From the NCBI RefSeq assembly GCF_002210285.1, contig NZ_MWQE01000005.1, positions 124,001 through 188,000 of the forward strand: DNA of 64,000 bases, read 5' to 3'. Both the position numbers and the translations under genes were made by a program. Of this stretch, positions 4,608-20,046 are shown one piece after another; the first letter of the stretch is position 1; each line of letters starts with the position of its first letter. Origin of the DNA: Fibrobacter sp. UWR2. Lineage in GTDB: Bacteria; Fibrobacterota; Fibrobacteria; Fibrobacterales; Fibrobacteraceae. The notes beneath the pieces were generated by a model. The model was not told the origin of the DNA. It saw nothing but the letters and a program-made list of their open reading frames with translations, and made no database searches.

Positions 4608-5750
<1,143 letters not shown>

Positions 5751-17090: not shown

Positions 17091-17118
17091 AGTCTACGTG
17101 GCGAATGTCGCGTAGACT
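17091..17118 (+). terminator. Inverted repeat between lichenase and regulator genes
   Basis: AGTCTACG and CGTAGACT form an 8-bp stem around a 12-base loop, followed by TTGTTATTTTAT. It lies 22 bases past the lichenase stop and 16 bases before the chosen regulator start. It is either a terminator or an operator for the regulator. Confidence 0.55.
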
Positions 17119-17134
17119 TTGTTATTTTATAGCC

Positions 17135-18508
17135 ATGCGCAAGGAACTCGCCCATATTCTGGAGAGCCTCCCCCACAAGGACGGGGACAGGCTCCCTAGC
17201 GTGCGTGAAATCATGAAGGTGTACCGCATGTCTTCGAGTACGGTGCAGGCGGCACTCCGTTCCCTTGAACGCGATGAGAAAATTTGCCGCATTCAGGGAA
17301 AGGGATGCTTTTGGACATCGAAGGGCATCGGCATGATATGCTCGAGCGATTCCGTTCCGGCGGTTCGCGAATCTGCCCTGGAAAAGATTGAGCGCCTGTT
17401 CCGTGAGGACTGGGAGCGCGGGCAGTTCAAGATAGACGAAGACCTCCCCCTCATGAAGGAACTCTCTATCCGCTACAACATTTCGCAGGCGATTATCCGG
17501 AAGTTCCTGACCCAGCAGGAAGGCCGCGGAATCCTGGAGCGAGTCGGCCGGCATTACCGCTTTACCCGCAAGGACGATAAGCCAGCAAATGCCGCCCTGA
17601 GTGAGATTATCTTTGTTACACGCTGCAACAGCTGGGGCGGTTTTACTGCCGAGAGCGAGCGCGAAATGGATTTTTTGCGCATGGTCTACAAGAAGGCAGG
17701 CGCCGAGCACTACAAGCTTATTCTGCTCGGCCTGAACGAGAAGACCGGAATGCTTATCGACCGGAGCGGCAAGCCCCGTAAGCTGACCGATTTCCGCAAT
17801 GCCGTAGGCGCAGTGCTTTCTACCCTCCTCGTGATGGAACCGAAAAAACTCCTGCAACTCTTTGCGGAAGTCCCGTACCCGGTAGCCGTATGGTGGGAAC
17901 ATCCCGTGCAGGTGTTGCCGGAGCGATACCTCCACAAGGATAACTGGACCTTCTTCAATTCCACCTTCGGGCCTGGCCCCGGAAAAGAAATGGGCAAGTA
18001 CCTACTTTCGCGCGGGGTGCACGATGTCGCCTTCTTCTCGCCCTACCACGACAGTTCATGGTCCATTGAGCGCCTTGAAGGCCTGCGGGAAGTAGGCCTG
18101 AGTGTTTTGGATTGCACCGACGATGAGTTTGCAAGCCCATGGGACTACAAGCAGATTGCCCGCGGGAAGGTGGAAAAGCATTCGGTGGAATCGTATGCCC
18201 GCGAACTCCTGAAGCGCAAGATGATCAGCATTCTGGAAAACCGCGACTACGGGCTAATCCCTATCGTTTGCGTGAACGACGACGTGGCATCGGCCTTGTT
18301 GGAACTGCATGAAGAAGGCCGCATTGGCCCGCTGGGGCCGCTCTATGCCTTCGACAATTCCGCAGAAAGTTACCTGCTGAGGCTCCCCTCCTACGATTTC
18401 AACACGCAGGCGCTTGTGGACCGCATGTTCTACAGCCTCGTGAACCGGGACGCGTTCCGCATGCAGCATCGCATACAGCAGGTACTCGGCCAAGTCGTCG
18501 AGAAATAG
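17135..18508 (+). CDS. GntR-like regulator with two winged-helix domains and a LacI-type sensor domain
   Basis: The protein is 457 residues from the ATG at 17135. An in-frame ATG at 17105 lies in the loop of an inverted repeat and is less likely. Residues about 1-60 form a GntR-type winged helix (DRLPSVREIMKVYRMSSSTV, QAALRSLERDEKI). Residues about 75-145 repeat the pattern (DEDLPLMKELSIRYNISQAI). The remainder resembles the periplasmic-binding-protein fold of LacI/GntR regulators (GKEMGKYLLSRGVHDVAFFS; PIVCVNDDVASALLELHEEG), which bind sugars. Its position next to the lichenase suggests control of glucan use, but the ligand is unknown. No good Shine-Dalgarno is seen. Confidence 0.8.
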   Translation: MRKELAHILESLPHKDGDRLPSVREIMKVYRMSSSTVQAALRSLERDEKICRIQGKGCFWTSKGIGMICSSDSVPAVRESALEKIERLFREDWERGQFKIDEDLPLMKELSIRYNISQAIIRKFLTQQEGRGILERVGRHYRFTRKDDKPANAALSEIIFVTRCNSWGGFTAESEREMDFLRMVYKKAGAEHYKLILLGLNEKTGMLIDRSGKPRKLTDFRNAVGAVLSTLLVMEPKKLLQLFAEVPYPVAVWWEHPVQVLPERYLHKDNWTFFNSTFGPGPGKEMGKYLLSRGVHDVAFFSPYHDSSWSIERLEGLREVGLSVLDCTDDEFASPWDYKQIARGKVEKHSVESYARELLKRKMISILENRDYGLIPIVCVNDDVASALLELHEEGRIGPLGPLYAFDNSAESYLLRLPSYDFNTQALVDRMFYSLVNRDAFRMQHRIQQVLGQVVEK

Positions 18509-18520
18509 TTTTTTTCCAGA

Positions 18521-18710
18521 TTACGGACTAAATACCGCCTGCATGTCATTTAGTCCGTAAAAAATGTGCGTAACGCCGCCATGAATTCCGCTTTTTACGG
18601 ACTAAACGCCCACCGCATGTCATTTAGTCCGTAAAAACTGAGTGTGACGCAACTTTAAGAGCGTTATTTTACGGACTAAATCGCTGGGGGTCGCAGATTA
18701 GTCCGTAAAA
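18521..18710. repeat. Three tandem 74-bp palindromic units
   Basis: The 311-bp gap 18509-18819 holds no gene. Three perfect hairpins occur: 18521-18560 (13-bp arms), 18592-18637 (15-bp arms) and 18667-18710 (13-bp arms). Each has left arm TTACGGACTAA and right arm TTAGTCCGTAA. The TTACGG of each unit starts at 18521, 18595 and 18669, an exact 74-bp period. Loops are 14-18 bases; units 1 and 2 share GCATGTC next to the right arm. Spacers are only loosely alike. A degraded echo with GCCGCC and TTCTAAATCG may lie near 18746-18778. Function is unknown: operator array, processed RNA or mobile repeat. Confidence 0.85.
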
Positions 18711-18819
18711 CTAATGCACGCACACCACGTAAAAACGAATGCAGCGCCGCCACTTAATGCTCGCGACGTTCTAAATCGCAAAAAGAAGCTCGCACGCGCA
18801 AAAATCGGTGAATCCAGCT

Positions 18820-20016
18820 CTACGCCTTAAAGCCAGCGCCATACTGGTACAGCTCCAGCCCGAATTCCGACATGGCCGCAATCAGGTGGTCCAGTATATC
18901 TGCCTGGATGCCTTCGAAAACCTCCCACTCGGTGGTATTCGCAAATGCGTAAATCTCGAGCGGAAGCCCCTGCGGGGTTGGCTCCAGCAGGCGCGTCATG
19001 AGCGTCATGTTCTGAGCGACAGTCTTGCGCGAACGGAGGTATGCCGTGCAGTAGGCGCGGAACGTGCCGATATTGGTGAGGTGGCGGCTATTGAGCGTGT
19101 CCGGATTCTCGGTCCCGGAGGCGACCCCCATCAATTCCGCCTTGGACTCCTCGCCCACAATTTCTTGCGCTTTTGCACTCAGGTACGGCGCAAGGATCTC
19201 AATTTTCGACAAGTTCGCAATTTCTTCGGGCGTGAGGAAGCGGACCGTCTTCAAGTCGACATACATCGCCCTCTTGATACGACGCACGCCGGAATCCTGC
19301 ATGCCACGCCAGTTGCGGAACGAATTCGTGATGAGGTCGTATGCCGGGATGACCGAGATGGTGTTGTCCCAGTTACGCACCTTCACCGAAGTGAGCGTGA
19401 TGTCCATGACCGTACCGTCGGTATGGTGGCGCTCGATTTCAATCCAGTCGCCTTTACGGAGCAGGTCGGAAATGTTAATCTGCACGCCCGAAACGACACC
19501 CAGAATGGAATCCTTGAAAATCAACATCAGCACGGTCGTCATCGCGCCGATTGCAGAGAAGATTATCACCGGGCTCTTGTCGGTGAGCTGGCTTACGATG
19601 AATATCGCCGCAAGGCAGAACAAGACAACCTTCACTGCCTGGAAAATACCGTGCAACGGGCGCTTCATGGTGCGTTCGTTGATGCCGTTGAAATGCTCCA
19701 CTACGTCGAGGACCGAGCAGGCAACAGCAAAAGAAAGCAGTGTATACCAGATATTCGCTGCCCTCGAGCAAAGGTCATAAAGCCAGTCTTCGGTATTGAG
19801 AATGCGCGGGATTGTCGATGAAAACGCCGTCGCAGGGATAATCTGCAAAAGGCGCGATGCCACATGCCTTTCGACAAGGAGCATGTTGAAGGTGTTCGGC
19901 GTCTTTTTCGCCCAACGCTTGAGCAGTGGGACAAAGGCCGCGTAGATAGCAAGGAAAAGGAAGGCTATCGCCGAAAGCAGTAGGGCGAGATTCACGTATT
20001 CGTTGTCGATTGGCAT
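18820..20016 (-). CDS. Mechanosensitive ion channel, MscS family (YbdG-like)
   Basis: This 398-residue inner-membrane protein has several transmembrane helices in the first half (about 8-30, 75-100, 125-150, 155-185). The conserved MscS pore and beta domain follow: AIGAMTTVLMLIFKDSILGVVSGVQI, then a beta segment with DGTVMDITLTSVKVRNWDNTI and IPAYDLITNSFRNW. Length and the RHHTDGTVMDI motif fit the YbdG/MscM subgroup, which protects against osmotic downshock. The ATG at 20016 is chosen over a TTG two codons upstream. It lies 30 bp downstream of the HD-GYP gene on the same strand, so they may be cotranscribed. Confidence 0.92.
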   Translation of the reverse strand: MPIDNEYVNLALLLSAIAFLFLAIYAAFVPLLKRWAKKTPNTFNMLLVERHVASRLLQIIPATAFSSTIPRILNTEDWLYDLCSRAANIWYTLLSFAVACSVLDVVEHFNGINERTMKRPLHGIFQAVKVVLFCLAAIFIVSQLTDKSPVIIFSAIGAMTTVLMLIFKDSILGVVSGVQINISDLLRKGDWIEIERHHTDGTVMDITLTSVKVRNWDNTISVIPAYDLITNSFRNWRGMQDSGVRRIKRAMYVDLKTVRFLTPEEIANLSKIEILAPYLSAKAQEIVGEESKAELMGVASGTENPDTLNSRHLTNIGTFRAYCTAYLRSRKTVAQNMTLMTRLLEPTPQGLPLEIYAFANTTEWEVFEGIQADILDHLIAAMSEFGLELYQYGAGFKA

Positions 20017-20046
20017 GACCAAATTATAGAAATTAATTTGAGACGG

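Follow-up and report, generated by a model that had tools for sequence, protein, structure and literature searches.

The array and its neighbourhood

The window, by which we mean the whole stretch of 64,000 nucleotides of Fibrobacter sp. UWR2 DNA that was analysed, contains an intergenic array of three 40-bp units of the form TTACGGACTAA-N18-TTAGTCCGTAA. The array lies between two convergent genes, which Pfam assigns to a GntR-type regulator and an mscS-like channel, the neighbours that an earlier note on this DNA had named from the letters. The features are as follows:

17105-18508, plus strand: GntR-type double winged-helix regulator gene, one flank of the array
18521-18560, no strand: dyad unit 1; arms 18521-18531 and 18550-18560; 18-nt middle ATACCGCCTGCATGTCAT; exact match to the genome-wide unit
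18561-18594, no strand: 34-bp spacer separating units 1 and 2; distance between unit starts 74 bp, or 7 helical turns
18595-18634, no strand: dyad unit 2; arms 18595-18605 and 18624-18634; middle ACGCCCACCGCATGTCAT
18635-18668, no strand: 34-bp spacer separating units 2 and 3; distance between unit starts 74 bp, or 7 helical turns
18669-18708, no strand: dyad unit 3; arms 18669-18679 and 18698-18708; middle ATCGCTGGGGGTCGCAGA, centred on a run of G as is usual in Fibrobacter sp. UWR2
18820-20022, minus strand: mscS-like channel gene, the other flank of the array

Each unit consists of two 11-bp arms around an 18-nt middle, with the inverted match extending to 13, 15 and 13 bp in the units starting at 18521, 18595 and 18669, and the period is exactly 74 bp, just as the note had described (three palindromes with perfect arms of 13-15 bp). 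The successive arm-to-arm offsets are 29, 45, 29, 45 and 29. The window holds 6 exact arms against 0.46 expected (at most one mismatch), a number that no shuffle reached. A search of Rfam with the element gave no match, and the note's remark that no known element came to mind holds. A decayed fourth unit at 18764 was considered and rejected, given that other offsets score equally and the resemblance is not distinguishable from chance.

The regulator and channel genes are incidental to the array. In five relatives (G052, G070, G082, G053 and G045), the two genes are direct neighbours, separated by 26 to 83 bp that contain no array, compared to 312 bp in Fibrobacter sp. UWR2 (hereafter G000), and other arrays adjoin unrelated genes, so we rejected the two neighbours as partners of the array. 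It appears probable from this comparison that the array was gained in the G000 lineage, at this one locus. Target-site duplications or precise ends were not found at the array-free gene pair in the relatives, where the intergenic DNA is too diverged to show them.

Among close strains, 89 of 90 arm positions are identical, as against 78 of 90 positions in the middles (Fisher p = 0.002) and 240 of 260 in the inter-unit DNA, bearing out the note's view that selection acts on the arms and the period, in contrast to the drifting middles and spacers; the free decay of arms in close relatives that it had envisaged is not what these strains display. One close strain carries a 40-bp unit identical to a unit elsewhere in the array. 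Locus L114, from the 'Treponema' MAG RGIG7950, consists of DNA resembling that of Fibrobacter within a mixed MAG, and its use was confined to the close-strain comparison. The contigs of L114 and L189 (G048:C28) are approximately 97-98% identical in parts to this Fibrobacter and lie within genomes of other taxa; it is likely that they are misbinned or contaminating.

A genome-wide family with relatives in other genomes

The pattern searches of the same and other Fibrobacter genomes that the note had proposed reveal a family spread throughout G000, with related forms in its relatives. The 11-bp arm occurs in 56 exact copies in the 3.28-Mb genome, compared to 4 for the reversed control, and all 56 fall in arrays. 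When arm variants are allowed, G000 contains 38 units in 14 places, the middle being exactly 18 nt long in 36 of the 38 and variable in sequence. The note had considered that the unit might prove to be a generic repeat scattered at random: scattered in the genome it is, but the arrays are phased and the arms constrained, so the distribution is not random. Most of the G000 arrays are located away from divergent promoters, with unrelated genes at their flanks. A crude gene caller had suggested that arrays are strictly confined to the gaps between convergent genes; codon-based calls and Pfam weakened this rule, which we rejected, and a bias in certain genomes is all that is left of it.

The generic form ACTAA-N18-TTAGT is plentiful in some of the 80 Fibrobacter genomes searched and missing from others, and its outer arm bases vary by species (TTACGG, TTACAT, RTGCT, TAGG, TRCMT). 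Arm classes beyond ACTAA, such as GGGCGTATAAA, ACCTATAAA and TACGGATAAA, are found near homologues of the nuclease described below, the overall span being similar in all. In G006, two arm families coexist that obey separate spacing rules, and several arrays of the second family sit between divergent genes. Two MAGs, one of a rumen Spirochaetaceae and one of a Lachnospiraceae, also carry arms of the G000 type. The centre of the middle is often a homopolymer, G in G000 and A in others, significantly so in 4 of 5 families tested, G009 being the exception.

A second motif, TTACATACAAATTAA, recurs between or beside G000 units, for example around 5014-5030 and 5124-5139 of locus L043, and its 9-mer ACAAATTAA is present in 7 of 16 G000 arrays. 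This motif is similar to ACATAC, the half-site that goes with related nucleases, and could be either an ancestral site or an accessory one.

Helical phasing and half-site behaviour

The distances between neighbouring units take many values (53, 63, 74, 84, 95, 106, 137, 148, 158, 169, 179 and 200 bp, and others), and the sets of distances are species-specific, yet all are near whole helical turns. For 178 unit spacings between 52 and 242 bp from many species, the best period is 10.55 bp at phase 0 (R = 0.92), and with one value per genome and distance (n = 94), R is 0.90, and the highest null value is 0.33. Two close strains have spacings of 85 and 63 bp at one locus, that is, two turns apart. 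Because the unit distances are multiples of 10.55 bp, the sites all face the same side of the double helix.

The arms themselves point the same way. The variant half-sites of G000, TTACAGACTAA and CGACAGACTAA, the latter mostly at outer ends, are without a matching change in the partner arm, and the compensatory changes preserving the stems that the note had suggested looking for are absent: at the variable arm positions of five arm families, 185 of 320 pairs are complementary, compared with 202.8 +/- 6.8 after shuffling. The arms therefore behave as duplex half-sites rather than as the two sides of a stem. Of the two possibilities offered in the note, a DNA site or an RNA stem, the helical spacing favours the former and the lack of arm compensation speaks against the latter.

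A nuclease family beside the arrays

A blind, all-against-all comparison of the proteins encoded near arrays in five genomes (G000, G006, G009, G068 and G072) recovered one protein family only that lies beside arrays in four genomes, in non-syntenic places. The protein is approximately 286 aa long and combines an N-terminal beta-hairpin domain with a PD-(D/E)XK / EDxHD-like nuclease; searches against Pfam and NCBIfam gave no match at a meaningful score. In G000, the gene is single-copy, is located away from the window array, and has on either side an array, the two having identical units in common:

435-1292 of G000:C3 (L035:435-1292), minus strand: nuclease gene

In G068, matching arrays in inverted orientation, approximately 4 kb apart, surround the nuclease gene, whereas most homologues, unlike the two-sided G000 gene, have arrays on the 5' side only. 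The 61 homologue loci that we collected come from Fibrobacter, rumen spirochaetes and a Lachnospiraceae MAG, and a de novo search around them found at least 2 identical-arm dyads at 47 of the 61, compared to 0 of 305 shuffles; at some of the 61 loci, a recognisable array was not found. Arrays lie 5' of the nuclease gene at 41 of the 46 loci with assigned arrays, most of them 13 to 390 bp from the start codon. The spirochaete and Lachnospiraceae homologues have upstream ACGG arrays with 84 and 73-74 bp spacing, and the two paralogues in G006 adjoin different arrays, that on C55 an RTGCT array and that on C83 a TTACAT array.

The nuclease search matched 49 of the 80 Fibrobacter genomes, among which G014 matched via a C-terminal domain only and is left out of the comparison of dyad counts. 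The 48 genomes with the nuclease have a mean of 7.1 dyads versus 0.5 in the 32 without it (p = 6e-8), and at least 5 dyads are present in 21 of the 48 and in 0 of the 32. That the nuclease and the dyad arrays are a cognate pair is strongly supported. Four dyads are present in G069, where a nuclease gene was not detected; these are possible orphan arrays.

Three further observations concern the surroundings of the gene. A terminator-like hairpin with a T-run (GCGTTGATAC...ATCAGCGC-TTTTTT) lies at L035:1325-1360, between a TATATT-like promoter and the start codon of the nuclease, and a similar hairpin is found upstream of homologues L132-L135, L139 and L142 (the G000/ACATACTAA clade); possibly, it is an attenuator. 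There is an assembly break inside an array beside the G000 nuclease gene, where the end of contig C6 and the start of C3 overlap in one unit, and the two contigs probably join. Near the TTACAT arrays of G006 (L084, L086 and L088), there are six related ORFs of a paralogous family (MKDILEY..YRQYIADYY...).

Catalytic domain and specificity

Residues 176-284 match the catalytic domain of I-Bth0305I (3r3p) over 91 of 97 residues, with a modest Z of 8.2 and an rmsd of 2.9, followed by the Bax1, Vsr and VRR-NUC folds; Foldseek alone found no match below E = 0.001. Residues E179, D210, E225 and H226 are invariant in 36 homologues, and alignment shows the predicted active site to be intact.

Variation in the arms follows the other half of the protein. 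In a partial Mantel test on 32 dereplicated pairs, the N-terminal half predicts arm distance once the C-terminal half is controlled for (r = 0.32, p = 0.0005); with the roles of the two halves exchanged, there is no such correlation (r = -0.10, p = 0.93). Covariation with the arm peaks at residues 41-65, and in a confident AlphaFold2 model (mean pLDDT 89.9), residues 42-59 form a beta-hairpin, followed by a long helix (79-114) and the nuclease domain from approximately residue 160. Within the hairpin, residues 46-53 track the arm core: the NH-type goes with ACAT, a spirochaete protein included, the KSNG-type with ACGG in spirochaetes, the HKN-type with GCGT and the CR-type with ACCT. Foldseek found no match to the isolated N-terminal domain below E = 0.001, only helical-hairpin look-alikes and no convincing solved relative; it is from arm covariation that we infer a DNA-binding role for this domain.

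In the tree, the G000 nuclease is placed among the Fibrobacter readers of ACATACTAA with support of 84/85, and the spirochaete readers of ACGG are in another clade. Because these proteins fall in separate clades, convergence fits better than horizontal transfer of the ACGG specificity between phyla, which we rejected, and the ACGG arm probably arose at least twice independently, in G000 and in rumen spirochaetes.

Proposed mechanism and alternatives

We read the arrays as dispersed duplex target sites of a putative dimeric, homing-endonuclease-like nuclease, the window array being an outlying member, and assign to this reading a probability of about 0.72. The co-occurrence of nuclease and dyads, the arrays beside the gene, the tracking of the arms by the N-terminal domain and the 10.55-bp phasing are all established at the level of genome comparison. 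In the mechanism that we propose, two nuclease protomers would occupy each unit, each reading through its N-terminal beta-hairpin (residues 42-59) a half-site of 11 bp with AA(A) at the end, and the two C-terminal EDxHD / PD-(D/E)XK domains would meet over the sequence-tolerant 18-bp middle, while neighbouring dimers on one helix face would assemble together. A nick or cut in the middle, followed by repair from another array, could then copy units or arrays to new intergenic places and hold the arms of any one genome to the same sequence. The unit found at two positions of the array in a close strain and the inverted matching arrays of G068 speak for copying. Both the cutting and the spread by repair are conjectural: 38 uncut targets in one chromosome would be dangerous with an unregulated cutter, which counts against cutting. 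The full proposition, that a dimeric nuclease with a variable hairpin cuts the arrays, spreads the units by repair and switches specificity together with them, and that the arrays accordingly would be an undescribed class of repeats, we put forward tentatively, at somewhat less than even odds.

The main rival is that the nuclease-fold protein only binds the arrays, in chromosome organisation or gene control, with no cutting or copying. Helical phasing suits cooperative binding, the position of arrays directly upstream of the nuclease's own gene at most loci is what autoregulation would produce, and the arrays between divergent genes in G006 fit gene control. We nevertheless regard pure binding as unlikely, given that homologues from three phyla all keep the acidic residues of the active site, that G000 arrays are mostly not at divergent promoters and adjoin unrelated genes, that arrays appear and disappear between gene pairs which themselves stay fixed, and that copies of units are made. 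A role in anti-phage defence, with the nuclease attacking invaders and the chromosomal arrays serving as decoys or self marks, draws on the resemblance of the C-terminus to the nuclease domain of PDC-S68 proteins, which PADLOC lists as candidates for defence (matches with E as low as 2e-28), but this likeness is confined to the nuclease domain of large multi-domain proteins, viral contigs carry no arms of the two families tested against them, and the full-length protein was not found on plasmids and annotated phages. The plasmid and phage matches consist of the C-terminal domain of large helicases or of weak fragments, apart from one match of 31% identity and 72% coverage on an unannotated 4.2-kb faecal phage record, and we rejected plasmid, phage or viral carriage. 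Defence is, in our judgment, very improbable.

Two explanations of the palindromes that dispense with this nuclease have even less to recommend them. Were the units REP/RAYT-type repeats, in which a Y1 (HUH) tyrosine transposase mobilises hairpins of ssDNA, their dispersal in intergenic DNA, the several orthogonal families per genus and the catalytic gene between its own repeats would all be accounted for. Yet Y1_Tnp (PF01797), found in 27 of the 80 genus members, is absent from the array-rich G000, G006, G007 and G068, and the arms display duplex phasing with no compensation. A GTAG (or CGTC) tetranucleotide at one repeat end belongs to the definition of a REP (PMC3733652), and none of the listed units has this tag: they start with TTACGG or CGACAG and end with CCGTAA or CTGTCG. 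We accordingly give such an origin scarcely any credence. The perfect inverted arms of 13-15 bp and the location of the window array between convergent genes could suggest that the intergenic DNA is transcribed into RNA stem-loops acting as terminators or processing signals, but compensatory pairing is absent, the arms are followed on both strands by A-runs rather than T-runs, the units keep the 10.55-bp periodicity and Rfam offers no match, which makes this explanation barely tenable.

Comparison with known systems

The role that we propose for the nuclease is closest to that of REP/RAYT systems, in which the enzyme and the site geometry are unrelated to those described here. REPtrons comprise dispersed intergenic palindromic units in several orthogonal families per genus, with the enzyme gene flanked by its own repeats (PMC3116915, PMC3733652), and REP/REPIN sequences with their RAYT (TnpA-REP) form doublets and arrays whose recognition co-evolves with the enzyme (PMC3116915, PMC3733652, PMC8266576). 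The dyad arrays share with them the short dispersed palindromic units, their grouping into arrays, the several families, the flanking of each enzyme gene by its own repeats and a recognition sequence that changes along with the enzyme. However, the enzyme here has a PD-(D/E)XK / EDxHD-fold nuclease domain, whereas RAYT is an HUH Y1 transposase, and the sites are phased pairs of duplex half-sites, with neither the GTAG tag nor stem compensation. The arrays may represent a second route to dispersed palindromic repeats in bacteria, independent of RAYT transposases.

I-Bth0305I acts as a dimer on a target of nearly 60 bp, with the nuclease domain tethered to a separate DNA-binding region (PMC3943268). 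The fold of the catalytic domain, the conserved acidic residues and, in our proposal, the separate DNA-binding region and the dimer on a very long target are shared with this and other EDxHD homing endonucleases. In contrast to these, the nuclease described here is not part of an intron or intein, its home genome contains tens of cognate sites rather than one target that insertion destroys, and it carries an N-terminal domain that is unrelated as far as tested. The PDC-S68 and HEAT_CxxC_PD-DEXK candidate defence proteins likewise share the C-terminal nuclease domain but are other, mostly much larger proteins. In the open-access literature, to which our assessment of novelty is limited, we found no paper describing such a system of nuclease and dyad arrays.

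Taken together, these comparisons delineate an unnamed but recurrent nuclease family linked to its DNA targets by sequence alone, with several mutually distinct nuclease-array systems across at least three phyla. The variation of the arms, with matching changes in one short beta-hairpin, would allow a DNA-recognition code to be tested directly. The targets of engineered TALENs and ZFNs consist of inverted half-sites around a sequence-tolerant spacer where two nuclease domains meet. The dyad units have the same layout, inverted half-sites around a tolerant middle, whereas the protein is a natural single-chain family with a predicted beta-hairpin reader and putative cleavage. A hairpin reader fused to a nuclease that would act on inverted half-sites deserves attention as a small analogue of TALENs that occurs in nature.
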